In this document: piece by piece, positions 16,585 to 35,304 of the stretch
Numbering within the stretch: position 1 is the stretch's first letter
Layout: each line of letters opens with the position of its first letter
DNA from: a virus
Reading direction: 5' to 3' (one strand)
Length of the DNA stretch: 35,304 bases
Virus record (IMG/VR): IMGVR_UViG_3300030328_003703
Span: 1 to 35,304 of that record
The notes under the pieces: model-generated
The model's database searches: none
The model's input: only the letters and a program-made list of their open reading frames with translations
Told to the model about the DNA's origin: nothing
Program-made: the position numbers and the translations under genes

Positions 16585-16590
16585 GTGTCT

Positions 16591-18180: not shown

Positions 18181-18197
18181 ATTAATAGTTTTTTAGA

Positions 18198-18205
18198 TAT
18201 TTATA
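18198..18205 (-). promoter_or_regulatory. T4-type late promoter box
   Basis: The minus strand reads TATAAATA exactly, between the stop of the giant gp7-related gene (18213) and the gp8 start (18180), with 17 nt from box to ATG. It would start the gp8/DUF4815/67-aa unit. No terminator hairpin is visible in this short gap, so read-through from upstream is likely as well. Confidence 0.83.
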
Positions 18206-18212
18206 ACATTAA

Positions 18213-21200
18213 TTAAGATGGTTCAATACCCCCAGTATCTCGCAAGCCTTGAAGCCTTCTTTGTATCGTTGGGAAAGTAGTTAATCCAGCATCAATTGTA
18301 AGTCCCGTAACCCCTATTGAGATAGGATTTACTCCTCTTGTAATATTTCCAGTATCATTGTTATATAATCTACCCCATGATACTTCACCTGCATATACTG
18401 TTCCACTAGTACTACCAAGTCCAACAACAGAAGTATTAGAAGATATATTACATGTAATAATACCAGTAGTGGAATTCCATGCACTAACATTATATACATT
18501 ATCTAAAAATGTTGTTCCAATACCAACAATATTATCATCAGAAATATAAATTGAAGTTACACCACTTCCAATTGAAGTTCCATGTATGTAAATAGGATAA
18601 TTTACTACTAGATTATTATATGTTCCACCATCCTTTAAATTAAATTCCAGTGCTAATGATGCTCCATCTATACCAGAAGCAGTACTAATACCAGTAATAA
18701 TACCAGTAAATCCCTGAATAGCATTAATCTTAGAAACTTCCTCTAATTTATTAGACATGGGTAATGATGCAAGAACATTAGGTACTTTACTTTGATTATA
18801 CCCAAATCCTTCATTGGTAATAGTAATTGGTGTAGTAATAGAACCATTGGTTATAGTTGCTGTTGCCGTTGCTGTTGTTCCAATACCCACACCTATACCA
18901 GTTGTTGGTATTCCAATAGATACTGAAGTTGTTGCTCCAATATATCCACTACCACCACTAACAATACTCAATGCCGAAATTGTACCCGCAGCAGAAACAA
19001 TAGCAGTTAATCCAGCAGCTACAGGGGAAATACTATCAATGATAAACCCACCAATAGGTTTAATGGATATTTCTTCTTCATCATCAAATATTCCTTTATT
19101 ATCAATGAAAATATTTGTTAATGAATCTGTGGAAGAAATATCTCCAATTATTTTTGCTGTTGGGAATATTAATGGTTCTAAACTAGGTCTAGATTTAGAA
19201 ACAGATTCACCATCAATAATTCTATCAGATTTCTGTTTTGTCCATTTTAAAGTTTTATCCAAATCATTAACACCATCACCAGAATATAAATCAGTTTCTA
19301 CATACCCAGAACCTATAGTCGCAATCCCAAGCATTACTCTGGATTTTTGATTAACATCATTGTCATGTATTCTAAGCAATTCTAATTTATCACCAGATTT
19401 TAATGATGGTCTAATACCTTCTTTTAATTGAGTATCACTTTCAGATGTTCCTCTATAAAAGAATATTGAAATATTATCTTCAGGTTTAGGTGCATTAGTA
19501 AAGACAAAAGATGTTCCACCATTAAATTTATAAGAAACATCTGGTTCTTGAATTATACCATTTATAATAATTAATAGTGCATTTGAAAGATTTATATTAA
19601 AATCACTATTTAAAGCTTTATCAAAATTCAAAAATTCATCATCATATTTAAGATTAAACCTTGTTCTCTTACCATCTTGTTGATCTTTAATAGAATCAAT
19701 ATAATCAAATTGTCCAAATTGCCAAGCTGCAAATGAATCAGTAAAGGTATCCACTACCGTTAATTCAAATTGTGATATTGGAGATTCTAAACTAGCATCA
19801 GTAACTAAACCAACAGGAGTAAATACATCTCCTTTTTTAAACGAATAACCATTTCTTGTTATATTCCAATCAGTAACAGAGAATTGAGTGGCACCTGTAC
19901 CTGTCGTAGAACTTGCTCCAATAGTAACATCAAGTAATAAACCTATTCCAGTATCTGTAGTTGTACCACTACCCAATCTTGATACTCCTTTAACTTCTAA
20001 ATTTGTATAATTTGGTTCAGGAACAGTAATTTCAGGATTCTTATAATTAGTACCTGCAGCACCAATATTGAATGCTAAAGTTCCACCAGCACCAACTGTA
20101 GCAGTAATATTACCATTACGTCCTATACTAGAACCAACATTTACAGTAAATGTATCATCCGTCTTTGAATTAATTGATGTTAGTATACCTGATACAGGAT
20201 CTGTAGATCTTGGATAAACATGAATAGATTTATAATCATCTTTAGAACATGAGAATATTAATGAATCTGTGTTTATACCAACATTATCGGACGTAGTAAG
20301 TCCATGAGAAGGAATAGTTAATATTAAATCACCACTAGATGGCTCATAACTTGCATTGGTAACCGTTTTTGGAGTACCTGCCCATGAGTTTACAAATATA
20401 CTAGTACCAGAAGTTCCGACAAATTTATGTGTAAATGGCACATCAGTTATTCCAATTGATACTGAACCTCTATAACCAGATCCATAATTAGCATCATACC
20501 AAGGCATAACAGTACCACCTCGCATATAATTATGAGGAATTGTAGATATACCTACATTAGTTTTAAATCTGTATGTTGGAGATTTTCCAACAAATACAGT
20601 AAATGTATTTCCAGAAACATCATATATGTATATTGTGGTTCCATATACTGGATCAGTTGTTCTTGGATAAGGATGTTCAGTTGTATGACTATCTGCATCA
20701 CAAGTAAACACTAACGAACCATTACGGAATTTTATTGCTTGATTATGAGAAAGACTAGCTCCGTCATGTGTGACAATTAGAGTACCTTTTGTAGGAGAAT
20801 ATACTGCAGAAGTTACTTTTCTATCTCCAAATGGACTGCCCATTAACTGTATAGCACCAGTACTACCTTCATATACATCTCTTACAAATTTATGTTCAAA
20901 GTCTCCAGGAATAGTATCGAGAACACTATATGACACACTACTAACTCCAGTAACAGTATCAATATCTTCTGGGAAGAATGTTGTAGTTACTCCAACATAT
21001 TGTCCAGAACAATCAAACTCAAGATTATGTAATTTAAATTGATTAACAATTCCCAATTCAAAATCATGTGGATCTTTAGTAGTAATAATAATATCACCAG
21101 TTACATTGTCATAATTTGCAGTAGTAATAGAATTACTAGGGCCTGTTGCTCCAGTACTAACAATTGACGTAATCTCACCATTAGCATTTGTTTTAGCAAA

Positions 21201-24200
21201 AGTTCTTGCTCCAACAAGAGGTGCATATCCCAATCCTGGAGTGGATCCAAGAGAAACAATCAATCCACCTCTTGGTACTTCATTTTGATTTACATCACTA
21301 TGACTAATAAATATATCTCCCGTATCAGTCGTAATGCCCGTAAATGAAATACTACTAATACCTGACACAGTATCCTCTATTATCTGATAATTATTTCCAG
21401 GATTATTTTCTGCAGTAGGTCTTTGATAAAGATTGTTTATTAATAAAAGTCCATTTCCACCAGAATTTCCCAATCCTGTAGTATTTGCACCACCGACTGT
21501 TAAATTAAATGTTTGACCTATACCAGTAAATTGCTCAGAAATATCATCATATACTTGATTGGTAGAATAATCATTTCTAAGATAAACTCTTCCATTAAAA
21601 TCAGATTTAGGTTCAAGCAAATTACTACTATTTCTCAATCCTCCACTTCTTCCTCTTGGTGGATGTACAAAATGTATTTTTTCATCCACAATATTATAAG
21701 AACCTCTATAAAGTTGAACTGTGCTGCCATCAGTATGATTAGTTGCAGAAGTTCCAACAAAGCCACGTTCTGTCACAACTAATGCAGTTGTTCCTATACC
21801 AGTAGTAATTGGACCTATAGTAGTAGTACCAAAACCAACATTAACTACCTTAAGATATTCATCATTAATTTTTAGAATATCATTAAAAGTAATAGAAGAT
21901 ATACCACTTAATCCGAAAATTGTTGATGCTGTTCCAATTTGTCCACCAACATTATCCTTTAATGTATATGAAAGTAATGTATTTGCTACTGGAGATTGTA
22001 AAATATTATCAATAGACACCATAGCCTTAGTATTGCTCTTTGCCATTGCAAATTTATGATAATTTCCCCCTCCTACATCAACAAAAGTAACTGCTGTACC
22101 TACAGAAGCAGGAGATGTTGTTGAAATATAAAAAGAGTTTTCATTATTTCTAACAGCAAAAACAGTTGTTGGTAACTCCCCTATACCACCACTACCTTTA
22201 TATTCCATAGCAGTAGCACCCACACCAACAAATGTAGATGCTGGTGTATAAACTAACTCCTCATTAGTTCTAAAGAAATGATTATCAATAGTGAACAATC
22301 CAGTAGAAAGATTAACTTCTGTTGAATCACTAGGATCAAAAGATTTTGCAAAAATAGGTATATTATTATTTGTTAAAGTAAACTCAGTTTTTTGAACACG
22401 ACTACCATATGGTGCATTATATGCATACAAATCAACAGATTCTACAATATTACCATAACTTAAATCTGGAGTATTAAGTGTATTTGATACATCAATATCA
22501 TTATAAATGCATAAATTTAATGCAGATACTTGAATATTAGAAGAATTAAATGATGAATCAGGATAAAATTTTAATAAGAAATTATTAGAAGAATCGAAAT
22601 TAACTCCAAATGTACCTATTCCAAGAATATTATCATATTCCTCTATAGATGTATTAGCTATTGTTCCACTTGCAGAAAGAAATGGTAATTGATTCATACA
22701 AACACCATCTGAATTATGAACTACCATTACTTGATGAAGTGCTTTTGTAGAACCAACACTAACTTCAATTACAGATTTAACACTATTAAAAAGACTTTTA
22801 CTTAATTCAAATACTGTTGATATACCAATTGATTTTGAATAATTAGATTGATAAATTGCTGTTCTTTCTTGTCCATCTGGTTGATTAGGCAACTTAAATC
22901 TATGAGTTCCTGTTCCAACAGAAGTTGTACCAAATCCAACTATATTAGATTTAATATCTATTATATCCTCTGTATTATTTTCATAATTCAATGTAAATTC
23001 AGTTCCACTAATAGAACCTTTAAAAGATCCTATTCCGATAGATGAATATCCTTCTTGCTGTAAATCATCAATGAAATATTCTGAAATATAGGTATTAGAA
23101 CCATCATGTGTAACATAGACTTCTACATAATTAACTTCCTTTGTTGTTCTATTAATTAAATAATTTTTTGCATATAATGATGTAACTTTTTCCGAATGGC
23201 TAGTAACAATACCTGTAGTTGTTGGTATACCATCATCAATACCTCCGATAGCAACAGTACCAGATAAATTAATAAATCCTATAGGATATGTTCCAGTCGC
23301 AGGTGTAAATATAAATCTACTATCAATTATTTTGATATCATAATCAGTTGATTCTGGACTTTCTAAAGGTGTAAATCTAAAATAATGATCACCTAAATCA
23401 TCTTCAATTAAATCAAAAGAACCCAATGAGCTAGAATCGCCATAAGATGTTGTAATACCAGAATATAATTGTCCTTTTTCTAATAAAAATCTATTATTAT
23501 TCTTCTGTAATAATACTAAATCAGATAATTGTACTTTAGAATTTACTAAATCAGAAACCCTAATAACTAAATTTTGATAATCTAATACAGGATTTTCAAA
23601 AATATTTAAATATTCATGAGGTTCTGAGTCTAAATTAGAAAATTGTGAATTTATATTATCTATTTTAAGAACTTCATTACTCGTTGATTCAATGTAGTTA
23701 CTTAACTTTTTGTTCTGTAATGATATAAATTTAGAGTTATTATTACTGTTTATACTATTTGCAATATCAAAATTGTAAATAGTATCAACTCTATTATCTC
23801 CTATATAATCTCTAATAGAAATTGTAGCATCTGCACTACCAATTCCAACATTTGAAGTTGATTTAATTCTAGTATCAGCAAAATTCTTAAGTCCACTAGT
23901 ATGTAATAAATTATTAACAGTAGATCTTAATTCATCATAAGTACGAGAACTTTTTACAGAGTATGAAAGATTTTGATAATAATCATTATCAGGTGTTACT
24001 TGAGTATCTTCACTAAGTTTTCCAACATTATCATACCATCCTATATTTTTCTTATTTGAATAATCTACTATAAATTTTCCATTATTACTAGTAATACTAT
24101 CAATAGTTGCTATTACTCCAGATTCTTTTCCTATAATAATATCACCAATTAATAAATTATAATTACCAAATATTTTAATAAAATCACTTTCACTTTTAGT

Positions 24201-27200
24201 AATATATAAATCTCTTAATTCACCATCTATTAATAATTGTTCACCTATAATAAATCTTGTAGATTTTAATGTAGACTCAAAGATAGGATAATTCTCTTTA
24301 TTTACAACACTAGCTAAAGAATTAATTGTATCAGCTATTCCTGTATTTGTTGTTAAATTGGTAATATCAAATACAACTTTAAAATCAAGTCCAGTATCAT
24401 CACAACTAAGAACTTTAAAGAATTCAAATCCATAATCTTTAGAGTTAAATCCAGATCCAGTTATACTATTTTTAGTAATACCTTCTACAAATGCTTCATC
24501 ACCTGGTGAAAATGGTGGATTTGTAAATCCTGCAGGTGGAGTAGTTATTGCACATGTAAAAATACCTGATGAATTAGATAATACAGTTTTAATACCAACA
24601 CCATTACTATTATTTGTAGTAAATAAATTTACTGGATTATCAGAAAGGCCGTAAGGATTTGATAAAATATCAACTCTATTAATTGAATTACCTATTAAAT
24701 CAAGAGAAAAAATACCTTTATCAAGTACTTTTTTTGTTACAGAATCTACAATATTAATTGTTGGTTCATTTAAATATCCTCTACCACCACTAGTAACAAA
24801 AATATTTCCAATAGTATTTGATTCTTTTATAGTAATGAATGGAGATATAGATGCATTTGGCTTTAAAGTATTATCAGATGAATATTCAAAACCTTCATTT
24901 ACAATTCTTACTTGATTTACATTTCCAATATCTTTTGATTTAGAAATTATAAGAGCACCTGTTCCTTCTGTTGATGATGTACCAACAAAATTAGGTAATT
25001 TTTTATAACCAAATCCACCATAATCAATAGATACTTTATCAATACCACCTTTTTCTGTTAAAGAATTTGTTGAATATAATAAAGAATCACAATCACTTTG
25101 ATTATATGATAATCTCTCTGGTAATGATTTTAATGCAATATCAAATGTAGTTGTACCAGTACCAATAATATTATAAGTATCATTATAACCACTATCTACA
25201 AATTTAATTTCAGAATAATTTTTAACATTTATATCAGATGTACTAATAAATCCAGATTTTTCAAATGTATAATATAATTGATTTGGTAATGATGGATTAT
25301 AATCAATTGTAAATGTTGCAGTATCTCCAATACCTGGTGTTCCTTCACTTATTAAATCAAAAATAGTAGATGCTGTAGATACAAATTCATTTTTAAAATC
25401 TACATCATAATAAAGTTTTAATTTATAATCTTGTAGTGAGGAATGAGTTAGATCAAAAACTAAACTATTATTACGAACAACATTAATTTGTGGATTAATT
25501 AAAGAAATAGATTGTGATATACCACCCGTACTTGCAATACCTACAGTTACTGGTGGATTAGATATAGCATCATTTAATGTTTCTGATAATTTAAACTTAT
25601 TATTATCAACTTTATATACAAAATAATCTCTAATTGATAATCCTTCAGGAATTATATTAGGTTCAGTAGTTGTATAAGATATTTTATCACCTGTTTTTAA
25701 TCCATGAGATATAATTTCAAGTTGACTAGTTGAAGTATTAATTCCTGTTGAATTAAATTCTATTGAATCTAATAATGAAAAACCAGTTATTTCATCTCTT
25801 CTAATATTAACTATAGAAGTTGTATCAATTCCAACTGATAAATTTGGTTTAATATTTAAACTAATTTCATCATCTACTTGCAAACTATGAGAAGTTGAAA
25901 CTGAAACTGTTGCAACATTTTTTTGTATATTTCCAAATAATTGATTATACTTACTTTCAAAAGAATACGTATTATCTTCATTTGCACCACCACTTACAAA
26001 AAATACATCAGAATAAGATGATCCATTTAAATCTGTACCAATACCAGTTCTTATTCCAATAGTATTATTACTAGTATTTGAAATATAAACAGTTGATGGC
26101 AAACTAAATGTAGGATCTGTTCCATCAGTAGATATTGCTATATTAGATGTACCAGCAGTAAATACTACTTCTTGGCCTTCAGTAAATGGATGTTTTTCAA
26201 TATAAATTCTTTGTGTAGGTATATTTCTTACAATACTATCTGATATTCCAAAACCAAAAGTTACAGAGGATGAAATACCAGAAATAGTTCCAAATCCTAT
26301 TGATTCTTTTGGGTTAAAATAAACTTTATTATTTAATTTAGAATCAAAAGAATTTATACTTTTATTAATTATAAATGAATCTGGTAAATAAGATATTTTA
26401 AAAGGTATTGTATGTGCTATTCCAGTAAGTCCTCTTTCAACTCTTAAAATCTTAAGATTTCTATAAATATCCAATACTTTTAATGTTTCTGTACCAATTC
26501 CAATACTACTACCTATAGATACTGATTCTGGAATTGAAGAAACATATATTTCAGTGGTTATTCCAGAAGATGCTAATATTGTACCAATTCCTGATGCTGA
26601 AAAAGTAGTAACACCAATAGGATAATTTCCATTTAATTCTGACAATGTTGATGCAAATCCAGAAATTGTAATATTATCCTTATCTTTCAAAGAATGATAA
26701 GGTAAAATAGAACCTTTTATTCTATTTCCATCATCCCAAGTAAATATCACATCATTAATAACAGTGGAATCTATATTAATGTCTACAATATCTTTACCTT
26801 TTAAAGAAGAAACTCTAGCTGTTAATCCATTACCTTCAGTACCATCATCATCAAATTCTAAAAGATTATCAATTTGATAGTTATCACCAGATGAAACTAT
26901 ACTTAATTCATCAACACTACCAATTGTAACCGAATCTACTATAGATTTTTGTTTAGCAATTTCATCAGTTTCTATAATAAAATCATTATCAATATATTTT
27001 TCAGATACTTTATATGGAAATGTATTTCTTAAAAGTTTTGATTTAGTAAAATCAAATGATTGATCAATATCTTGCTGTATAGGAGTTGATCTATAAGAAT
27101 CTCCAATAAAATATGGAAATGTTGGATTATTTTCATTATCTATAGTTGCAAAATATGCATAAACACCCGCAGGAAACTCTGGTGTTTTAGTAAATCTACC

Positions 27201-30200
27201 ATTATTTCTATCTAAATCACCATTATCTGTAAATTTATAGTCATCTATAAAATAACCTAAAGGAAAGACGTTTGTATTAGGCCTATCAACAATATTAGAA
27301 GAATCTAATTCATATCCAGTTATTAAACGCTGATTATTTAATTGCTCTTTAGGATCCTTATATCCAAATGATCCGTATATAGGATTTCCGTCATATGCCC
27401 ATCCAATAATTGGTGAATGAATATTTGTAATTTCAGTGGCAGTATCACCAAAATAGTCTCTTAAAGTTTGATTATAACCACAAATACTATATTGTAAATT
27501 ATTATTAGACTCTAATAATAATTGACCAACATCAGTATATTTAATAGTACCTTCTGTAGCACCAAAACTCTTTTTAGCATATCTAAAATTATTATTAACA
27601 TCTAATTTTCTTACTTTACTATCAATAATTGCATTTTTTCCAGCTGCAACAACATTTATTGATGTATCAATACTTGAATAACCAATTCCAGCATTAATAA
27701 CTTTAACATCTGTTATTCTTCCATTAACAATAATTGGTAATAATTCTGCACCTGTTCCATAACCAGAAGAATCAATTACATTTAAATCAGGGATAGATAC
27801 ATATTCATTACCACTAAAAGATACAGATACAGAATCAATTTTTCCATTTATTATATTAGGTTTTAAAGATGCATTTTTACCACTCTTAATAGAAATAATA
27901 GGATTATTTTCAAAATTTATTATTGATGAACCATATCCAGTACCAGTTTCATACAAATATGCATCAATAATACTACCCCTAACAATTGGAGTTACTAGAA
28001 TTTCTTCAATATTTCGAGTATCGGTTCCAATACCAATAGGAGCATAAGTTAAAGAAATTGAAATATCAGGATATGAAAAATTATGATATCCACCACCAAC
28101 TGATTCAAACCTTACATAATTTCCTCTTGTATAATTAGATGTTATGGATCCACCAATACCAGCATCAGAAAGTCTAAATGAGTTATCATCAAGTTTAATA
28201 ATTTGATATTGATTTGTAGTAGTTGATATTCCAGTAGATGTTGTCAATCCACTTATTTTAGTTCCAGTCGTAGAATATACAATTTTATCTCCATCATCAA
28301 ATCCATGATTATCAAATATAATTTTATCATAATGAGTCGAAATTCCAACAGGTTTAACAATTAATTTTCTATTAGTAAATGTACCACCATCAATTAGATT
28401 TAATCCTGCAACATATTTCTGGTTTGAAAGTGTTGAAAATTTATGATCTCTTCCTAATGCATTAATAGTATTTAAATCTATAGGATTAGTTTGAGTTACT
28501 GCGTCGTTAAAAGAGGAATGTAATTTAATTGTTTTTTCATTAATAATATCAACAAAATAACTTGCACCATTAGATAATGTAGATGTTCCAATACCTACAC
28601 CAACACCTGGACTACCATTAGAATTATAAATTACTTCTTGACCCTTATAAAATGCATGATCTGTATCAAATTTAATTGTATCAAACTCTTGACTAACTCC
28701 ACCAAAATCAGACGTTGATAACCCACTAAACGAAACATCTCTATATCTAACATTAACTATAGGTTCAATTATAGCATTTCCATTACCACCTTTAACATTA
28801 ACAGAAATAACATCTTTGATATCAAAATTTTGAGTATCAACAAATACTTTCTTAATACTACCTTGAATTACTGGTTGAATTAATGCAGTAACACCAAATC
28901 CTGTAGCTACGTCAATTTCTGGTAAATTAATAACATCATAATTAGTACCAGAATTCAACACACTAACAGATTCTAAATTTCCATAATATACTTTATCCTT
29001 TGATTTATAATTGGTAATTTCTACACCATTAACAAGCATTCCTGTTGTACCAGGAGTGGTGATAGATTCTTTTGATTTAATACTATCAACATTTAATGGG
29101 AATTTCTTTAATAATTTTTGAGCTCCTATTTTCCCAGATTTTTGAGAATTTAATGTAAATGTATGATTTCCAGGAGAATCTTGTATTCTTAAATAATCTG
29201 ATGAACCAATAAATGTAGGTGAACTATATAATTTTATCTTTTGATTGTCAGTAGAATCAACTTCCACAAAATAAGTTCCTTCAGTCAAACCACCATAAGG
29301 ATCTCCTGAAGGTTTATAATAAACTTCATCACCATCTATAAAAGGAACAATATCAGAAAATCTAATTGATGCATATTGATTTGTAAGACTATCTGAAATT
29401 TCATCCCATAAACCATAAGCACTTGTATGATCATCAGGAATAGTTGCGGATTTAATCTCAATATCAATACCACTTAAATATTTTATAAATTTATTTTGAA
29501 TATCTTTAAGTTTGTCAAAATTCTTATCCAATCTATGAGATGGTAATGAATTTGATGCAATATAAACTAGTTCATTTTCTTCTTCAACATACAAATTCTG
29601 TACATCTGAAGTGATATTATCATATTCTAAAGGAGTTTTAGTACTTATGGGAGTATTAATTTTTCTCCTTAAATCATATTCTCTATCAGATTTAATAAGA
29701 TTATCAGGTATATCAGCACTAAGTTTAATTTCATTATTATCAAAAGTTTGTTTAATATAACAAAGTTCATTTTTACCAAATATAATATCATTAGAACCTC
29801 TTCCAAGTATTTCTACAGCATCACCTTCTTTTAAACTTGATCTATCATAAGTTGCAGCATTTAAAGTTAATATATTATCATCTATTGGATTTTGAATTTG
29901 GTATCTTGTACTTGTATTGTATATTAGACTATTAGCCAAAATCTCCTTATATGTTTTATTTTCAGATGGATTTTTTATTAATTCTCCAAGATTTCTTACA
30001 CCTATAATTTCTCCTTCATCAACAGTGACATCTTCCGAAACTTGTTCAAATTCTGATAAAACTCCAGTCAATCTAAATTCTACTTTCCTAGTAGTATCTC
30101 CACTCTCATATCCAAAATAAGTATCCTCATTACTTCTTATATTATCTGTTGAAGAAATTGGTTTATTAATTCCACTACATCCAAAGAATTGATTAATACT

Positions 30201-31298
30201 TTTATCTGTATAGGAGATATTATTATCACCAGATACTACACTACCACTTGCTCTAAATCCGATAGTAGAATCTACTGCAATTACAGAAGAACCCACACCA
30301 ACATCACCAATAACTTTAGTTGCTGGTGTAATATTAAAATTACCTTGAACAGTAGATGCACTATCATCATAACCAATGAATAAAGAAATTTTATAATATT
30401 GTTGTGATGCTGTTACTGCTACACCAATTCTTGTAAATGGTTCTACTTCAGATATAGCTGCATTAGTGTTTAAATCGGATGTTTTATATAATGTTTGTCC
30501 AATTAAATTTTTAGGATTTGGTGGTTCTCCATCAGGAGAATTTTCATTAACAATTTCTCCTATAACAACTTCACGTCTAACATATTGTGCTGCTGATGAT
30601 TTTATTAGATAATCTTCTAAATTTATAATAGAAGGTGTTTCATTATAAAGTATACCGAATAATATTCTAAATGATTCATTAGTACCTTTTGATTGATATA
30701 AAGCTCTTGATTCTTTTAAAAAATTACCAACATTTAATGTAGGAGTAAAATCAACATCTTCTAAACCAGGTACTAAACTAAATTTTAATTTCTGATAAAA
30801 TTCTTTAAGAAATAAAGAACTTAAATTTTGTACAGAACTACCAGAAGAATGAGATGCTGCTATTGAATCAGAAAATATTAATTCTTCTCTATTTAAATCT
30901 TGATGATAACCAGTTATTCCACTAAATCCACGTTTGCAACCTATAAATGAATTGGTAGTAATACCAGTATATGTGATTATTTCATCATCAATTTTTAATA
31001 ATCCATATTCATCAGGAAATCCTTTTGTACTAGATACCTGAATCGTTTTATCATCTGCAGTAATATCTACACTAAGATTTGAATTATCAACTATAACTTC
31101 AGGAATTAAACTATCTAAACTCAAATATTGATCTAAATTATTTACTATATCAACTGGACCACCTTGATATTCCTGAGAAATATAATATTGCTTTAAAAAA
31201 TCTAATGCTTTAGGACTTTCAGTTTTAATAAATTCTGGAAGTTGGTTATCAATAATTTGTTGAATCTTCACTCTAGATTCAAAAACGTTTTGTATCAT
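18213..31298 (-). CDS. 7: Giant gp7-related baseplate wedge protein with repeat modules
   Basis: 4361 aa, over four times T4 gp7 (1032 aa). Residues about 150-300 resemble the C-terminal part of T4 gp7: FLKESRALYQSKGTNESFRI then LFGILYNETP (193-222), and LIGQTLYKT (265-273), against T4 FFESRSYDFYSTKGIEASYK, FLFKVLYNEEV and LVGQTIYTA (recollection). Later parts: many HGFxxGDxVxYxT units, a YHYH-like segment (about 1288-1403: WAYDGNPIYGSFGY, LDRNNGRF, GVYAYFAT), a cupredoxin-like stretch without ligands (about 1930-2022), several GGxGY repeats, and three modules with YPRxTDPVxG-like motifs (about 3390-3730). It lies 1 bp after gp6 and before gp8, the T4 gp7 slot. Likely role: wedge scaffold, with large outer decorations. 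The gene symbol is by synteny plus partial likeness; it could be annotated simply as a virion structural protein. Confidence 0.85.
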   Translation of the reverse strand: MIQNVFESRVKIQQIIDNQLPEFIKTESPKALDFLKQYYISQEYQGGPVDIVNNLDQYLSLDSLIPEVIVDNSNLSVDITADDKTIQVSSTKGFPDEYGLLKIDDEIITYTGITTNSFIGCKRGFSGITGYHQDLNREELIFSDSIAASHSSGSSVQNLSSLFLKEFYQKLKFSLVPGLEDVDFTPTLNVGNFLKESRALYQSKGTNESFRILFGILYNETPSIINLEDYLIKSSAAQYVRREVVIGEIVNENSPDGEPPNPKNLIGQTLYKTSDLNTNAAISEVEPFTRIGVAVTASQQYYKISLFIGYDDSASTVQGNFNITPATKVIGDVGVGSSVIAVDSTIGFRASGSVVSGDNNISYTDKSINQFFGCSGINKPISSTDNIRSNEDTYFGYESGDTTRKVEFRLTGVLSEFEQVSEDVTVDEGEIIGVRNLGELIKNPSENKTYKEILANSLIYNTSTRYQIQNPIDDNILTLNAATYDRSSLKEGDAVEILGRGSNDIIFGKNELCYIKQTFDNNEIKLSADIPDNLIKSDREYDLRRKINTPISTKTPLEYDNITSDVQNLYVEEENELVYIASNSLPSHRLDKNFDKLKDIQNKFIKYLSGIDIEIKSATIPDDHTSAYGLWDEISDSLTNQYASIRFSDIVPFIDGDEVYYKPSGDPYGGLTEGTYFVEVDSTDNQKIKLYSSPTFIGSSDYLRIQDSPGNHTFTLNSQKSGKIGAQKLLKKFPLNVDSIKSKESITTPGTTGMLVNGVEITNYKSKDKVYYGNLESVSVLNSGTNYDVINLPEIDVATGFGVTALIQPVIQGSIKKVFVDTQNFDIKDVISVNVKGGNGNAIIEPIVNVRYRDVSFSGLSTSDFGGVSQEFDTIKFDTDHAFYKGQEVIYNSNGSPGVGVGIGTSTLSNGASYFVDIINEKTIKLHSSFNDAVTQTNPIDLNTINALGRDHKFSTLSNQKYVAGLNLIDGGTFTNRKLIVKPVGISTHYDKIIFDNHGFDDGDKIVYSTTGTKISGLTTSTGISTTTNQYQIIKLDDNSFRLSDAGIGGSITSNYTRGNYVRFESVGGGYHNFSYPDISISLTYAPIGIGTDTRNIEEILVTPIVRGSIIDAYLYETGTGYGSSIINFENNPIISIKSGKNASLKPNIINGKIDSVSVSFSGNEYVSIPDLNVIDSSGYGTGAELLPIIVNGRITDVKVINAGIGYSSIDTSINVVAAGKNAIIDSKVRKLDVNNNFRYAKKSFGATEGTIKYTDVGQLLLESNNNLQYSICGYNQTLRDYFGDTATEITNIHSPIIGWAYDGNPIYGSFGYKDPKEQLNNQRLITGYELDSSNIVDRPNTNVFPLGYFIDDYKFTDNGDLDRNNGRFTKTPEFPAGVYAYFATIDNENNPTFPYFIGDSYRSTPIQQDIDQSFDFTKSKLLRNTFPYKVSEKYIDNDFIIETDEIAKQKSIVDSVTIGSVDELSIVSSGDNYQIDNLLEFDDDGTEGNGLTARVSSLKGKDIVDINIDSTVINDVIFTWDDGNRIKGSILPYHSLKDKDNITISGFASTLSELNGNYPIGVTTFSASGIGTILASSGITTEIYVSSIPESVSIGSSIGIGTETLKVLDIYRNLKILRVERGLTGIAHTIPFKISYLPDSFIINKSINSFDSKLNNKVYFNPKESIGFGTISGISSSVTFGFGISDSIVRNIPTQRIYIEKHPFTEGQEVVFTAGTSNIAISTDGTDPTFSLPSTVYISNTSNNTIGIRTGIGTDLNGSSYSDVFFVSGGANEDNTYSFESKYNQLFGNIQKNVATVSVSTSHSLQVDDEISLNIKPNLSVGIDTTSIVNIRRDEITGFSLLDSIEFNSTGINTSTSQLEIISHGLKTGDKISYTTTEPNIIPEGLSIRDYFVYKVDNNKFKLSETLNDAISNPPVTVGIASTGGISQSISLINPQINVVRNNSLVFDLTHSSLQDYKLKLYYDVDFKNEFVSTASTIFDLISEGTPGIGDTATFTIDYNPSLPNQLYYTFEKSGFISTSDINVKNYSEIKFVDSGYNDTYNIIGTGTTTFDIALKSLPERLSYNQSDCDSLLYSTNSLTEKGGIDKVSIDYGGFGYKKLPNFVGTSSTEGTGALIISKSKDIGNVNQVRIVNEGFEYSSDNTLKPNASISPFITIKESNTIGNIFVTSGGRGYLNEPTINIVDSVTKKVLDKGIFSLDLIGNSINRVDILSNPYGLSDNPVNLFTTNNSNGVGIKTVLSNSSGIFTCAITTPPAGFTNPPFSPGDEAFVEGITKNSITGSGFNSKDYGFEFFKVLSCDDTGLDFKVVFDITNLTTNTGIADTINSLASVVNKENYPIFESTLKSTRFIIGEQLLIDGELRDLYITKSESDFIKIFGNYNLLIGDIIIGKESGVIATIDSITSNNGKFIVDYSNKKNIGWYDNVGKLSEDTQVTPDNDYYQNLSYSVKSSRTYDELRSTVNNLLHTSGLKNFADTRIKSTSNVGIGSADATISIRDYIGDNRVDTIYNFDIANSINSNNNSKFISLQNKKLSNYIESTSNEVLKIDNINSQFSNLDSEPHEYLNIFENPVLDYQNLVIRVSDLVNSKVQLSDLVLLQKNNNRFLLEKGQLYSGITTSYGDSSSLGSFDLIEDDLGDHYFRFTPLESPESTDYDIKIIDSRFIFTPATGTYPIGFINLSGTVAIGGIDDGIPTTTGIVTSHSEKVTSLYAKNYLINRTTKEVNYVEVYVTHDGSNTYISEYFIDDLQQEGYSSIGIGSFKGSISGTEFTLNYENNTEDIIDIKSNIVGFGTTSVGTGTHRFKLPNQPDGQERTAIYQSNYSKSIGISTVFELSKSLFNSVKSVIEVSVGSTKALHQVMVVHNSDGVCMNQLPFLSASGTIANTSIEEYDNILGIGTFGVNFDSSNNFLLKFYPDSSFNSSNIQVSALNLCIYNDIDVSNTLNTPDLSYGNIVESVDLYAYNAPYGSRVQKTEFTLTNNNIPIFAKSFDPSDSTEVNLSTGLFTIDNHFFRTNEELVYTPASTFVGVGATAMEYKGSGGIGELPTTVFAVRNNENSFYISTTSPASVGTAVTFVDVGGGNYHKFAMAKSNTKAMVSIDNILQSPVANTLLSYTLKDNVGGQIGTASTIFGLSGISSITFNDILKINDEYLKVVNVGFGTTTIGPITTGIGTTALVVTERGFVGTSATNHTDGSTVQLYRGSYNIVDEKIHFVHPPRGRSGGLRNSSNLLEPKSDFNGRVYLRNDYSTNQVYDDISEQFTGIGQTFNLTVGGANTTGLGNSGGNGLLLINNLYQRPTAENNPGNNYQIIEDTVSGISSISFTGITTDTGDIFISHSDVNQNEVPRGGLIVSLGSTPGLGYAPLVGARTFAKTNANGEITSIVSTGATGPSNSITTANYDNVTGDIIITTKDPHDFELGIVNQFKLHNLEFDCSGQYVGVTTTFFPEDIDTVTGVSSVSYSVLDTIPGDFEHKFVRDVYEGSTGAIQLMGSPFGDRKVTSAVYSPTKGTLIVTHDGASLSHNQAIKFRNGSLVFTCDADSHTTEHPYPRTTDPVYGTTIYIYDVSGNTFTVFVGKSPTYRFKTNVGISTIPHNYMRGGTVMPWYDANYGSGYRGSVSIGITDVPFTHKFVGTSGTSIFVNSWAGTPKTVTNASYEPSSGDLILTIPSHGLTTSDNVGINTDSLIFSCSKDDYKSIHVYPRSTDPVSGILTSINSKTDDTFTVNVGSSIGRNGNITATVGAGGTLAFNIGAAGTNYKNPEITVPEPNYTNLEVKGVSRLGSGTTTDTGIGLLLDVTIGASSTTGTGATQFSVTDWNITRNGYSFKKGDVFTPVGLVTDASLESPISQFELTVVDTFTDSFAAWQFGQFDYIDSIKDQQDGKRTRFNLKYDDEFLNFDKALNSDFNINLSNALLIIINGIIQEPDVSYKFNGGTSFVFTNAPKPEDNISIFFYRGTSESDTQLKEGIRPSLKSGDKLELLRIHDNDVNQKSRVMLGIATIGSGYVETDLYSGDGVNDLDKTLKWTKQKSDRIIDGESVSKSRPSLEPLIFPTAKIIGDISSTDSLTNIFIDNKGIFDDEEEISIKPIGGFIIDSISPVAAGLTAIVSAAGTISALSIVSGGSGYIGATTSVSIGIPTTGIGVGIGTTATATATITNGSITTPITITNEGFGYNQSKVPNVLASLPMSNKLEEVSKINAIQGFTGIITGISTASGIDGASLALEFNLKDGGTYNNLVVNYPIYIHGTSIGSGVTSIYISDDNIVGIGTTFLDNVYNVSAWNSTTGIITCNISSNTSVVGLGSTSGTVYAGEVSWGRLYNNDTGNITRGVNPISIGVTGLTIDAGLTTFPTIQRRLQGLRDTGGIEPS
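20100..21130 (-). repeat. Three related beta modules within the giant gp7-like protein
   Basis: Three copies (approximate borders) share a strand pattern NASYEPSSGDLILT / SAVYSPTKGTLIVT / TANYDNVTGDIIIT. Each is followed by a segment FxCxxD/G and then YPRSTDPVSG / YPRTTDPVYG / FPEDIDTVTG, and FTV or YSV strands. The third is the most diverged. They correspond to residues about 3390-3730. These look like tandemly duplicated decoration domains; no enzymatic motif is seen. Confidence 0.6.
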
Positions 31299-31299
31299 A

Positions 31300-33243
31300 T
31301 TACTGTCGTATTAATTGTCCGTTGAGATAACTTGATGTATAAAAATCTTTTATAAAGGCGGTTCCTGTTATTTCGTCACCTGAACTAATAACATCTCTTA
31401 CAATATTTATTGTACTTTCTGGGATGTTAAAACTCAAATATAAATCTTTCAATCCAATTACATCATTAGATTCTGGTACTGCTTGTATTTCAACAACATT
31501 ACTTCCATCCACTGTTGATGTGATATTTAAAGTTTGTAAAATAATTTCACCTTTAATATAATCTACAGTTCCCGCAGATTTTGCTACAACAACTATATCT
31601 CCTACAGTTGATAATTGTACTAAAGAAAGTCCACCAGTTTTTAAATCAGGATTCGGAACATCAGTTAAATAAACGGGTTTAGATTGACCAGAAATATAAA
31701 ATCCTTTAGATTTTATATTAAAACCAGCAGCATTTACATGAAATTGATTACCATAACACAGTTCATACTGAGCAAATTGATTAAAAGCAACTTTAAGATC
31801 CCTTCTAATTCTTACTTTAGTTATATTGGATGTTATTGCCGTATGAGTATTATCTATTACTTGCTGTACCTTACTATATTTGAATCTTCCACCAAATTTA
31901 TTAACATCTAATGAATTTGCATATGAATTAAGACTATCAATTACTTTTGCTTTTAAAGATTCTGCCGTAGATACCTTTGTATCATCAAAATATACAGCAG
32001 AATCAAGTTCAATGTATAATATCTTCAAATCTGTCAATTTTTGCGTAATTCCTGATATAGAATACTGCTTTAATTGTGATAAAATCCTATTTTTATTAAA
32101 ATCAGATACAAAACTACCATTTTTTGGTTTTATGCTGATGGATACAGTACCAAATTCTGGTGGATCCAACTCTTCTCCACCAATAACTGCAACAGATTCG
32201 GTATCTGGGTATATTCTTTTAATAATTGTTTCATAATCCCTAGAAGTAACTGCTCTAAATTGTGAAGAATAGATTTTTGGAGCAAAATATTTAATAGAAT
32301 TTATAGATTCTGACTCAGCACCATTTTGAGAAACTTGATTTGTTGTTACATTTGGTACTGTAAATGAAAATGGTACTGTATTGGTGACTGATTCTGGATT
32401 ATTTTGTAATATTTTACCCACGAATTCAAAACTATTCTTATTGCCAACACCATTTCCATCTTGACCATCAGTAATGATATATTTTACATTTATTTTTGCA
32501 CCATTTGGCAATTTTTTTCCAATTATACCATCACCAAAGATTAATTCATACTTTTCATCCTGTACTTCTTGAATTAAATAGACTTGTGATGTTGAATTTA
32601 CATCAATAATATTGTTAACTAATGAATATTCAACACCAAGTCCTTCCTCTCCTTCATTTATATACACTTTAATGGTAGAAGTATCAATTCCATCATTATC
32701 TAATATGAATTTTTGATTTATTGAAGCATCAATAGTGAATGTTTTTTCTAATAATGTACCTTGTTTAAGAAGAATATTATTAAATGATGCACTATATCCC
32801 GTGTCTGATGTTCCTTTTATTGGTGCAACCCAGTTTTCGGATGTTGAGAATACAAATGAAGTATTATTTGCATTACCCACACATATCAAACCAGATGGTA
32901 AAATTGCATTTGGTGTTGCATTAATATTAGAAACTTCTAAACCAGTAATAACAAAGGATACCTGTGCCGTGGCCGCCGTCCTGGAGCGTGGTACATAACC
33001 AATGTTTCTTGCTAAGGAAACCACATTTTGACGCATTGTCGCTGATTCCAGAAAGGACTCATTGACAATCATGTTGGAATTGAATGCTGTAATATAGGTA
33101 TTATATGCCAGTGTGTCTATTAGGACTGAAAAATTAGAGCCTTCAAAATCAAAGTCAGTAAAATCGCTATTCGCACGTAAATAATCTTTAATTGAAGTCT
33201 TTATTTGATCAAAATCAAGATTTGTAAATTTAGTAAACGGCAT
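31300..33243 (-). CDS. 6: Baseplate wedge protein gp6 (baseplate J-like)
   Basis: 647 aa, close to the 660 aa of T4 gp6. The N-terminus FTNLDFDQIKTSIKDYLRAN, then SNFSVLIDTLAYNTYITAFN and MIVNESFLESATMRQNVVSL ARNIGYVPRS, is the highly conserved gp6/baseplate_J opening (residues 4-105). The central part has YELIFGDGIIGKKLPNGAKI, the baseplate_J core motif FGDGxxGxxxP. QFRAVTSRDYETIIKRIYPD is the second conserved block, and a beta domain ends the protein. gp6 dimers form the continuous inner ring of the baseplate and bind gp25 and gp7. It starts 1 bp after gp25, and the gp7-like giant starts 1 bp after it, matching direct assembly partners. Confidence 0.95.
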   Translation of the reverse strand: MPFTKFTNLDFDQIKTSIKDYLRANSDFTDFDFEGSNFSVLIDTLAYNTYITAFNSNMIVNESFLESATMRQNVVSLARNIGYVPRSRTAATAQVSFVITGLEVSNINATPNAILPSGLICVGNANNTSFVFSTSENWVAPIKGTSDTGYSASFNNILLKQGTLLEKTFTIDASINQKFILDNDGIDTSTIKVYINEGEEGLGVEYSLVNNIIDVNSTSQVYLIQEVQDEKYELIFGDGIIGKKLPNGAKINVKYIITDGQDGNGVGNKNSFEFVGKILQNNPESVTNTVPFSFTVPNVTTNQVSQNGAESESINSIKYFAPKIYSSQFRAVTSRDYETIIKRIYPDTESVAVIGGEELDPPEFGTVSISIKPKNGSFVSDFNKNRILSQLKQYSISGITQKLTDLKILYIELDSAVYFDDTKVSTAESLKAKVIDSLNSYANSLDVNKFGGRFKYSKVQQVIDNTHTAITSNITKVRIRRDLKVAFNQFAQYELCYGNQFHVNAAGFNIKSKGFYISGQSKPVYLTDVPNPDLKTGGLSLVQLSTVGDIVVVAKSAGTVDYIKGEIILQTLNITSTVDGSNVVEIQAVPESNDVIGLKDLYLSFNIPESTINIVRDVISSGDEITGTAFIKDFYTSSYLNGQLIRQ

Positions 33244-33244
33244 G

Positions 33245-33646
33245 TTATCTAGTTGCCTCTAGGAGGAAGGTATATTCTTGTGTTGGAAACTCTTGTCCAA
33301 TAATATCGTATATAATTGTTATTTCAAATGCATTAGTATCTGGTTGTGCATCCACACTAACATCTACATTAGCAATTCTTGGTTCAAAGTTGTCTAGTGC
33401 AACTCTAATTTGATCTTGAATATTAGATGCAGTACCAAAATCTACAAAATCAAAGAGACTATTATAAACATCAGAACCAAATAAAGGATCAAAATGTCTT
33501 TCAGTTGGAATTGTTTGAACTATATTGCGTACAGATTTACGAATGGCACTCTCATTTTTTAATATCTTCAAGTCTTGTGACACAGGATGTGGCTCAAATG
33601 ATAAACTAATATCCTTAAATGATCGTGATATCCTAGTAATCGCCAT
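33245..33646 (-). CDS. 25: Baseplate wedge protein gp25 (GPW/gp25 family)
   Basis: 133 aa, the family's usual length (T4 132 aa). The frame stays open upstream to 33853, but the start chosen is the ATG at 33646 (MAITRISRSFKDISLSFEPH): it gives the family length, and the upstream part overlaps a terminator, a late promoter and another gene. The GPW/gp25 core is NIVQTIPTERHFDPLFGSDV, then YNSLFDF (41-67), followed by the EPRI motif (88-91) and a closing strand pair. gp25 is lysozyme-fold-like and binds gp6 and the sheath at the inner baseplate. The start of the first late unit; an exact TATAAATA lies 20 nt upstream, with no strong Shine-Dalgarno sequence. Confidence 0.95.
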   Translation of the reverse strand: MAITRISRSFKDISLSFEPHPVSQDLKILKNESAIRKSVRNIVQTIPTERHFDPLFGSDVYNSLFDFVDFGTASNIQDQIRVALDNFEPRIANVDVSVDAQPDTNAFEITIIYDIIGQEFPTQEYTFLLEATR

Positions 33647-33666
33647 TAATAAACAGAGTTTTTCTT

Positions 33667-33674
33667 TATTTATA
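33667..33674 (-). promoter_or_regulatory. T4-type late promoter box
   Basis: The minus strand reads TATAAATA exactly, 20 nt before the gp25 ATG (33646) and just downstream of the terminator at 33689..33715. This order (terminator, then late promoter) separates the cassette upstream from the baseplate operon. Confidence 0.88.
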
Positions 33675-33688
33675 CCACTACTTAACAT

Positions 33689-33715
33689 AAAAAAGGCACC
33701 CTTGCGGATGCCCTT
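33689..33715 (-). terminator. Rho-independent terminator with GNRA tetraloop
   Basis: The minus-strand transcript folds as GGCAUCC-GCAA-GGGUGCC followed by six U. The stem is 7 bp with one U-G wobble, can extend by three more pairs (AAG with UUU), and has a GCAA tetraloop. It starts 4 nt after the stop of the 49-aa gene (33720) and precedes the gp25 late promoter. The only convincing intrinsic terminator in the window. Confidence 0.92.
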
Positions 33716-33719
33716 CATA

Positions 33720-33869
33720 TTATCTGCCTTGTCCTCTGTATCTTTTACGAGCCGAGTTACGAGAGGTTGCCGTATATTTTGAATGTTTGCCCCTCCCTTG
33801 ACGAGTCTTCTTCGGTGGAGATTGTATAAAATTCCCACCACTGATTCCACCACTAAACGTTTTAGCCAT
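33720..33869 (-). CDS. Very basic 49-aa protein, unknown function
   Basis: A short ORF read directly from the sequence: MAKTFSGGISGGNFIQSPPK, then KTRQGRGKHSKYTATSRNSA, then RKRYRGQGR. About a third of its residues are Lys, Arg or His, with no acidic residue, and Gly/Ser fill the rest; it looks disordered and nucleic-acid- or surface-binding. The ATG overlaps the stop of the 57-aa gene (ATGGCTAA) and has the best Shine-Dalgarno sequence of the window (GGAGG, 33873-33877). It is the last gene before the terminator. I believe similar mini-proteins exist next to gp25 in other T4-like cyanophages, but this is memory only. Confidence 0.8.
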   Translation of the reverse strand: MAKTFSGGISGGNFIQSPPKKTRQGRGKHSKYTATSRNSARKRYRGQGR

Positions 33870-34035
33870 TTTCCTCCAAATAAGTTTCAGTTTTAATTGT
33901 ATCGGGATGTGGAGAACCTGTCTGATAATATTGTATCGATAAGTCCTCCATTGTGTTAAAGTATTCAGATTCTCCTAAGTCACCGAATACTACCTTATTG
34001 TCTATAAGAATATTATATAACTCTCGTTTTCTCAT
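33862..34035 (-). CDS. Small acidic protein, unknown function
   Basis: 57 aa beginning MRKRELYNILIDNKVVFGDL and ending KTETYLEENG. The frame is open further upstream (to 34203), but that part lies wholly inside the glycosyltransferase gene and looks like its shadow. The ATG at 34035 gives the usual short overlap (23 nt) with the end of that gene. The stop overlaps the start of the basic 49-aa gene. The protein is Glu/Asp-rich with a predicted helix around FNTMEDLSIQYYQTG. Its opposite charge to the next gene product might reflect a pair, but nothing proves that. Confidence 0.75.
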   Translation of the reverse strand: MRKRELYNILIDNKVVFGDLGESEYFNTMEDLSIQYYQTGSPHPDTIKTETYLEENG

Positions 34036-34771
34036 GCCCGACTCTAATACGAGGATCACACCAGATTTCGAAACCCGCTTCCTTGGCATCAAGACAGAAT
34101 GAGACATCTTCTCCACACATGTCCTGTACCTCACCAGACTCAAAGACTTGCATCTTGGGTGCGAACCAAGGATAAGGTAGTCCTTCGTGCTCGAAGACTC
34201 CATTCTTAATCAATAACCATCCGAAACCTGTATAATCCACTGTGAAAGGTTTGCGTCTCTTGGATATACTTTCGACAGTCTCGTGATTCATCACACCACC
34301 ATTGCTTCGAAAATCTTCCTCTTCTAACCAATGGGCAACAGAAGTTGTCCTACCATCTTCGGTGGCATACCATCCTCCTGCAATGTCTTGATCTACTAAT
34401 ATTAATTGCCAGAATTTTTCACTGTTAAACACAATGTCACTATCAATCCATAATTGCCAATCATATTTTAGCTTACCGTCCCAAGGAATCTGATTCGGTC
34501 CTCGCAGTACATTCGCACCAAGGCACTTGCATCTTGCAAAGTTTACCATTGATGAATAATCCTGCGAAATTTGAATGCTTGCTCCTGATTGTACTAAGTC
34601 AAAACAAAGTTGTACAAAACTTTTAAGAAACTGATAGGATACACCTCTTCCAGGTAGACAGAAGACAATGGTTTTTCCCCTCACCATTTCCTTTGCCTTT
34701 TCATAATCCCATTCAGATTCTTGCTTTTTCTTCATCGGTGCTTTCGCTTTCACCGTAAATCCTTTAGCCAT
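34013..34771 (-). CDS. GT-A type glycosyltransferase-like protein
   Basis: 252 aa. A basic, probably flexible N-terminus (1-20) leads to KTIVFCLPGRGVSYQFLKSF (33-52), the first strand and nucleotide-sugar loop. DWQLWIDSDIVF (104-115) carries the Asp110-Ser-Asp112 DxD-type metal site. DIAGGWYATEDGRTT (129-143) and TGFGWLLIKNGVF (181-193) fit acceptor-side strands. CGEDVSFCLDAKEAGFEIWC then DPRIRVGHEK (219-248) gives the usual Glu/Asp pair and a late His (246). All key positions appear intact. A likely substrate is phage virion protein or DNA, or host envelope; unknown. It is first in a three-gene cassette behind a perfect sigma70 promoter, so it may be made early, unlike its structural neighbours. 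Confidence 0.82.
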   Translation of the reverse strand: MAKGFTVKAKAPMKKKQESEWDYEKAKEMVRGKTIVFCLPGRGVSYQFLKSFVQLCFDLVQSGASIQISQDYSSMVNFARCKCLGANVLRGPNQIPWDGKLKYDWQLWIDSDIVFNSEKFWQLILVDQDIAGGWYATEDGRTTSVAHWLEEEDFRSNGGVMNHETVESISKRRKPFTVDYTGFGWLLIKNGVFEHEGLPYPWFAPKMQVFESGEVQDMCGEDVSFCLDAKEAGFEIWCDPRIRVGHEKTRVI

Positions 34772-34809
34772 AATCGAATTCGCTATGTTAAAATTACTTA
34801 AGTATCAAT

Positions 34810-34838
34810 ATTATACTTCATTATATATTAGGTGTCAA
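34810..34838 (-). promoter_or_regulatory. Consensus sigma70-type promoter
   Basis: The minus strand has TTGACA (34838-34833), exactly 17 bp of spacer, then TATAAT (34815-34810): both hexamers perfect and spacing ideal. The transcript would begin near 34803, about 30 nt before the glycosyltransferase ATG (34771). The -35 box overlaps the stop codon of the upstream 57-aa gene. Such host-type promoters are typical of phage early genes. Confidence 0.88.
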
Positions 34839-35008
34839 TAAGAGTGCTCCATATAACTTTCAGTATTATCCGTATCCTCTAATTCTTCGTAAGTTAGATT
34901 ATCTATGTAACTGTGATATAATCTTCCCCATATTATATTAAACTCCTCATCATTCAGACACTTGAATAAGCATTTATCATTCAAGTATATGTGATAGGTT
35001 TTATTCAT
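34835..35008 (-). CDS. Small acidic protein, unknown function
   Basis: 57 aa from the ATG at 35008: MNKTYHIYLNDKCLFKCLND, then EEFNIIWGRLYHSYIDNLTY and EELEDTDNTE. A longer frame (66 aa) from an ATG at 35035 exists, but the inner start overlaps the previous gene's stop by 8 nt (ATGAATAA), the coupling style of this genome. Predicted beta hairpin plus helix, with many aromatics and an acidic tail. I recall similar small proteins in cyanophages but cannot name a function. The stop codon is embedded in the -35 box of the next promoter. Confidence 0.75.
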   Translation of the reverse strand: MNKTYHIYLNDKCLFKCLNDEEFNIIWGRLYHSYIDNLTYEELEDTDNTESYMEHSY

Positions 35009-35174
35009 CGGCACTTGTGAGAAATAGCTCACCATTATCTACATTCCATTTTAACACAAGGTCTTCGTACCAGTCAAACTCATTAATGATTTCTTCAGGA
35101 ATAGTCATGTGATATCTATCAGTTACTGGATCAATCTCTATAGTCGAAAAAATTTCATCAAAATTTTTTTTCAT
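35001..35174 (-). CDS. Small AbrB/MazE-like protein
   Basis: 57 aa, read directly: MKKNFDEIFSTIEIDPVTDR, then YHMTIPEEIINEFDWYEDLV, then LKWNVDNGELFLTSADE. The core (residues 23-53) follows the swapped-hairpin AbrB/SpoVT pattern: strand, IPxEIxxxF, then W-x-x-x-x-x-L-K/W-x-V-D-N-G-x-L-x-L. It differs in that the DNA-contacting basic residues common in AbrB are mostly replaced by acidic ones, so it may bind a protein rather than DNA. It overlaps the next small gene by 8 nt. The start codon is preceded by AT-rich sequence with only a weak GAG element. Confidence 0.72.
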   Translation of the reverse strand: MKKNFDEIFSTIEIDPVTDRYHMTIPEEIINEFDWYEDLVLKWNVDNGELFLTSADE

Positions 35175-35246
35175 ATTCTCAAAATCCTGTATATGTTTTT
35201 ATATAGGGAAAAAAATTTTTATATGAGAGGGAATTATAGCTGCCTT

Positions 35247-35278
35247 CCGTAACACTTTGTAGGTTAGGGTAGTTACGG
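35247..35278. repeat. Inverted repeat CCGTAAC/GTTACGG
   Basis: CCGTAAC (35247-35253) and GTTACGG (35272-35278) are perfect complements around an 18-nt loop, in the short non-coding stretch upstream of the AbrB-like ORF. On the minus strand it lies about 8 bp before a TATAAT (35238-35233) with a poor -35 region, so it could be an operator overlapping a promoter. On the plus strand it is followed by GTTTTT. The remainder of 35175-35304 has no clear gene; two frames at the edge might be the tail of an upstream gene. Confidence 0.45.
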
Positions 35279-35304
35279 GTTTTTAATAACGGGGGGGCAT
35301 CACG

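Follow-up and report, generated by a model that had tools for sequence, protein, structure and literature searches.

A predicted GT-A glycosyltransferase operon with a conserved sigma70-type promoter at the gp25 border of T4-like cyanophages

How a short gene group with a host-type promoter, set directly before the baseplate gene gp25, is read during infection, and what its enzyme does, are the questions raised by this locus. The window, meaning the whole stretch of 35,304 nucleotides that was analyzed (of 37,023 bases in the IMG/VR record), is T4-like cyanophage DNA whose closest annotated matches are Synechococcus and Prochlorococcus myoviruses. The best explanation as a whole, which we consider probable, is an early sigma70 operon for a GT-A enzyme that is terminated before the late gene gp25, with the enzyme perhaps acting on a host glycan precursor. 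Gene content, promoter, terminator, late box, conservation, predicted fold, and active-site residues were all read from the sequence itself.

The locus belongs to a T4-like cyanophage (Kyanoviridae) and occupies the end nearest gp25 in the small-gene region between gp46 and gp25. In cyanomyoviruses this region is a hot spot for small genes (Sullivan and colleagues, PMC3037559). A preliminary description had placed the unit inside the late structural cluster. The unit instead lies at the upstream edge of that cluster, bordering the small-gene region, and numerous small ORFs lie upstream of the unit. The genomic place is thus identical to that of the published hot spot. The difference is that the three genes of the unit (here, the trio) form a conserved edge and the variability sits around them. 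The features, all on the minus strand, are as follows.

35001-35174, minus strand: 57-aa protein of PHROG 661, with a probable AbrB/MazE-type DNA-binding fold (individual scores weak)
34838-34833, minus strand: -35 hexamer TTGACA, overlapping the stop codon of an upstream 66-aa ORF
34827-34820, minus strand: spacer element TATATAAT (consensus TAnATAAT), between the -35 and -10 hexamers
34815-34810, minus strand: -10 hexamer TATAAT, after a 17-nt spacer; predicted transcript start near 34803
34013-34771, minus strand: 252-aa GT-A type glycosyltransferase (predicted), PHROG 1574, first gene of the unit
33862-34035, minus strand: acidic 57-aa protein (pI 4.4), PHROG 3252, overlapping the enzyme gene by 23 nt
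33720-33869, minus strand: basic 49-aa protein (pI 12.0), PHROG 516, overlapping the acidic 57-aa gene by 8 nt
33716-33691, minus strand: intrinsic terminator with a GCAA tetraloop (dG -18 kcal/mol, z -5.3)
33674-33667, minus strand: T4-type late box TATAAATA for gp25, preceding the gp25 ATG at 33646
33245-33646, minus strand: gp25 baseplate wedge protein (PF04965, 2.1e-16), the first late-module gene here

The perfect promoter, the three overlapping genes, the strong GNRA-loop terminator, and the gp25 late box of the preliminary description are therefore all present. Just past the window, the contig carries a HicA-type toxin gene at 35299-35497 (PF07927, 8.8e-08; locus L095, 2300-2498, minus strand). 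The end of this ORF falls in a scaffold gap, with a run of N alongside, and no partner antitoxin was identified for it.

The promoter and its spacer element

Promoter and terminator calls were made as sequence matches. In a promoter scan of positions 16000-35304, TTGACA-N17-TATAAT was the sole 12/12 sigma70 match, and weak promoter-like sites numbered 132 compared to 134 in shuffles. Since about 0.15 perfect sites per window are expected by chance under a first-order model, the perfect promoter alone is only modestly surprising. What makes the call secure is conservation across relatives. We compared 93 enzyme-encoding loci, 80 from IMG/VR and the remainder from named phages. Selection was by closest similarity to the enzyme, and the loci are related to one another, with several near-duplicates, so that counts across them are not independent.

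Within 120 nt upstream of the enzyme, 89/92 loci had a sigma70-like site of at least 10/12, compared to 8% of shuffles. Sites of at least 11/12 were found upstream of the enzyme in 74/92 loci and upstream of gp25 in 0/85. The spacing between hexamers was 17 nt with almost no exceptions among the aligned loci, and the -10 hexamer mostly ended 22 to 23 nt before the enzyme ATG. The unit thus has the conserved TTGACA-N16..18-TATAAT close upstream that is looked for in an early-type promoter for host sigma70. Of the three loci that lacked a site this close, two (L061 and L065) carried the same promoter about 530 nt upstream of the enzyme. Between this intact promoter and the enzyme gene lie HNH homing endonuclease-like genes (L061, 2339-2833; L065, 4519-4995), an assignment judged from sequence without a profile search. 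In most of eight cyanophage genomes, the coding strand carried an excess of sites of the form TTGAC-N18-TATRAT (as many as 18 versus 0 to 3 in the control); ACG-2014f and Sf-FS3 had little or no such excess. Because of this enrichment, we regard the enzyme promoter as a member of a general class.

Column statistics on the aligned enzyme promoters picked out TAnATAAT in the spacer at a fixed register, together with a G directly before the -10 hexamer. The TAnATA core stood in register in 56 of 74 distinct enzyme promoters and in none of 78 other sigma70-like sites from the eight genomes. A search for the pattern of promoter plus spacer element gave at most one further candidate per genome. Spacers of enzyme promoters are also A+T richer (71% versus 56%), which accounts for part of TAnATAAT but not for its register. 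We considered TAnATAAT as a second, overlapping -10 hexamer, 10 nt upstream of the first, but rejected it because no -35 fits that position. Candidate roles for the element are operator, sigma-contact element, and bend.

In most relatives, the PHROG 661 gene sits just upstream of the promoter. Its 57-aa product has a predicted beta-beta-alpha-beta-beta topology, and 7 of 15 homologues gave a weak MazE/AbrB match. Foldseek matches include SpoVT, MazE, and AbrB, none of which is significant alone. We consider it unlikely that the spacer element is an operator bound by a dedicated regulator, e.g., this AbrB-like protein, and the link between the element and the PHROG 661 protein is a guess.

A conserved noncoding leader was also seen at 35196-35298 of the window (minus strand), with its core AACTACCCTAACCTACA at 35258-35274. 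Across about 60 loci, it lies mostly about 95 to 145 nt upstream of the AbrB-like 57-aa gene, and the core is present in one copy each in P-SSM2, S-SRM01, Bellamy, and Sf-FS3. Leader variants resemble a block mosaic, with TAACTACCCTAACCTACA or GATGGATCCCTTAAGCTATA followed by AAGTGTTACGGAAGCGAG, ACGACCCAGATCGACC, or AAGTCTTGCTTTTGCCA. No common RNA fold was found for this leader, and an Rfam search of the whole window plus the upstream leader returned no match.

The enzyme and its possible protein acceptors

The 252-, 57-, and 49-aa proteins of the trio have significant profile matches to PHROG 1574, 3252, and 516, respectively, all listed as "unknown function." For the 252-aa protein, the match to PHROG 1574 reached 2e-120. 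Searches of Pfam and NCBIfam with the window protein gave no match, and PDB sequences likewise gave none, whether queried with the enzyme or with its profile. The window protein fell short of the Glycos_transf_2 (PF00535) cutoff, and one distant homologue (35% identical) just passed it (24.0 versus 23.3 bits).

Five residues (D110, D112, E221, D222, and H246) are identical across 38 homologues, giving a DxD metal motif and an ED catalytic pair. The DxD, ED, and H residues are as expected for GT-A enzymes. An AlphaFold model of the enzyme (pLDDT, 82.8; pTM, 0.81) was compared to the PDB with Foldseek, and of 79 matches at an E value of ≤0.001 the top ones listed were almost all glycosyltransferases. 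The best were Mnn9, the LH3 and COLGALT1 domains, and mimivirus R699. The PDB fold matches lie at TM-scores of 0.45 to 0.6, and models of phage GT-A enzymes match at 0.62 to 0.64. The model and these matches both point to a GT-A fold. Taken together, the 252-aa protein is a predicted GT-A glycosyltransferase, and PHROG 1574 is assigned here to this class in place of its "unknown function" listing. With known GT-A enzymes (GT2-like phage enzymes, Mnn9, and LH3/COLGALT1), it shares the predicted fold, the DxD motif, the ED pair, and a C-terminal His. Unlike them, it has no significant match in Pfam, NCBIfam, or PDB sequence searches.

The structural matches bear on the acceptor. One possible but doubtful reading is that the enzyme glycosylates a virion or host protein, perhaps one first hydroxylated by 2OG-Fe(II) oxygenases in the manner of LH3/COLGALT1. 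The LH3, COLGALT1, and R699 matches fit this reading, as do Pfam-confirmed 2OG oxygenase genes just upstream or downstream in P-SSM2 relatives, other 2OG oxygenase genes annotated nearby in relatives, and a collagen-repeat gene nearby in S-CAM7. However, the GT-A fold is common to enzymes with many types of acceptor and cannot tell them apart, the TM-scores are 0.5 to 0.58, and the PDB contains many LH3 entries. In addition, the 2OG genes vary while the enzyme is constant, and none adjoins the enzyme in the window. We tentatively favor a host envelope glycan precursor as the acceptor over a protein and, after that, over DNA. No linked sugar-nucleotide pathway was seen beside the enzyme.

The enzyme gene is strongly constrained, with a median dN/dS of 0.057 versus 0.19 for gp25, and its distances track those of gp25-gp6 (Mantel r, 0.62; P = 0.001). 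These two results argue for long residence. Divergence of the enzyme was below that of gp25-gp6, which is partly due to how loci were chosen and is not taken as proof. The GC content of the gene (41.5% versus 30.7% for the window) deviates from its surroundings and may also reflect protein constraint.

Gene order, borders, and timing of the unit

The same arrangement is found in P-SSM2, where PSSM2_106 (T4-GC 102) and PSSM2_107 lie upstream of gp25 and encode the orthologous enzyme (86.5% identity) and the acidic 57-aa protein. As in the window, a 49-aa gene, unannotated in P-SSM2, comes after PSSM2_107. The promoter there is TTGACT-N17-TATAAT, again with the spacer element. Unlike in the window, a 2OG-Fe(II) oxygenase gene separates the P-SSM2 trio from gp25, and the trio is not immediately followed by a terminator. 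More broadly, the order enzyme, 57-aa gene, 49-aa gene, and gp25 is kept in more than 80 loci. The gap between the 49-aa gene and gp25 varies from 70 nt to 1.8 kb and holds genes such as the S-adenosylmethionine decarboxylase gene (speD) and those for 2OG-Fe(II) oxygenases.

We asked whether the trio is a moron, i.e., an independently acquired mobile cassette, carrying a promoter and a terminator of its own, that landed here by chance. As with phage morons, the unit in the window has its own sigma70-type promoter and terminator and a GC content unlike that of its neighbors. The enzyme is patchy: it is found in 104 phage records (57-aa gene, 68; 49-aa gene, 397), so that many cyanomyoviruses do without it, and it is absent from many genera. 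In IMG/VR, the PHROG 1574 family has at least 600 matching stretches. Yet comparison of gp25 neighborhoods, which had been proposed as a way to reveal a variable insertion, found the trio and promoter fixed, with gene order and flank unchanged in more than 80 loci. The low dN/dS of the enzyme and its agreement with gp25-gp6 distances also argue against a moron. The enzyme-less phages compared differ from carriers over a larger stretch than the trio. The 49-aa gene is not part of a mobile unit, since it adjoins gp25 in the enzyme-less Syn10, S-RIM2, and ACG-2014a and also in S-WAM1.

The terminator likewise did not behave as the end of a cassette. It followed the 49-aa gene in 15/15 loci, the window included, in which that gene abuts gp25, with stem sequences that differ among these loci, and it was usually absent where other genes come next. 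Because it is general only in the former arrangement, we read it as a border to gp25 and not as a fixed cassette end. A terminator within 150 nt before gp25 was tried as a general border and rejected, being found almost only when the 49-aa gene abuts gp25. Thus, of the proposed moron architecture, the promoter, high GC content, and patchy enzyme stand, and the fixed synteny and nongeneral terminator speak against it. The term self-contained cassette does not hold, since most relatives run on into further genes. We consider a moron improbable; the trio and its promoter look like a fixed, syntenic, long-standing early block and not a recent add-on.

Timing was approached through the late box. 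On the minus strand of the window, TATAAATA has only four copies (33674, 18205, 9075, and 6118), and so the statement that surrounding genes use late boxes is too general. Among relatives, TATAAATA lay within 120 nt of gp25 in 59/85 loci. Over the stretch that starts 150 nt before the enzyme and runs through the 49-aa gene, 0/88 loci had it, and the first gene of the unit thus does not have the upstream box of a T4-type late promoter unit.

A late trio, reached by read-through or driven by a hidden late promoter, with the basic 49-aa protein as a baseplate or packaging part, would fit the place of the 49-aa gene in enzyme-less cyanophages, where it comes after a baseplate wedge gene and a PAAR-like gene. 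Against this stand the lack of TATAAATA in the 88 loci and a strong sigma70 site in place of the late box, and we judge late expression to be quite improbable. In Syn10 (L179), the genes ahead of the PHROG 516 gene are, by profile match, a PHROG 719 baseplate wedge gene and the PAAR-like gene, and gp25 comes after it; S-RIM2 (L180) and ACG-2014a (L181) have similar-sized genes in the corresponding places.

Cyanomyoviruses lack alt, modA, modB, motA, and asiA, and their early genes are thought to be read by unmodified host RNA polymerase at sigma70-like motifs (PMC2984593). Given this account, the conserved sigma70 site, and the lack of a late box in the unit, early transcription by host RNA polymerase is a well-founded inference. 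"Early or constitutive" expression had been suggested, and its early part is well supported by the site counts above. For some middle genes of cyanomyoviruses, an early promoter overlapping a late one may drive transcription (PMC2984593), and early here could mean early to middle. A literature search for the expression timing of PSSM2_106 found nothing.

The glycosylation of DNA known from T4-like relatives, together with 2OG oxygenases near the enzyme in some phages, could suggest phage DNA bases as the acceptor, as for T4 AGT/BGT, but the T4 DNA glycosyltransferases have a GT-B fold and this enzyme a predicted GT-A fold, and with no base-hydroxylating enzyme seen in the stretch examined we consider this very improbable.

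Under the early-operon explanation, the host RNA polymerase, carrying the vegetative sigma factor, would read the promoter at 34838-34810 early in infection. The single resulting transcript would encode a soluble GT-A glycosyltransferase together with two small proteins, and early transcription would end at the terminator at 33716-33691, so that early RNA stops short of the baseplate genes. Late transcription of the gp55 type would later begin at the TATAAATA box and read gp25-gp6 onward. The enzyme would take sugar from a nucleotide-sugar donor and attach it to a glycan precursor of the host envelope, and this transfer may alter the infected cell's surface or precursor pool. What we infer in this explanation is the timing, the donor, the acceptor, and the benefit.

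PHROG 1574 is a strongly constrained family present in more than 100 cyanophage records that previously had no assigned function. Naming it a predicted GT-A enzyme behind an early host-type promoter makes remodeling of host glycans or proteins before virion assembly concretely testable in cyanophages. The spacer element and the terminator border offer simple sequence rules that locate the end of early and the start of late transcription. If the operator reading were true, this T4-like cyanophage, otherwise driven by a cascade, would have in the glycosyltransferase operon an early unit under regulation of its own.
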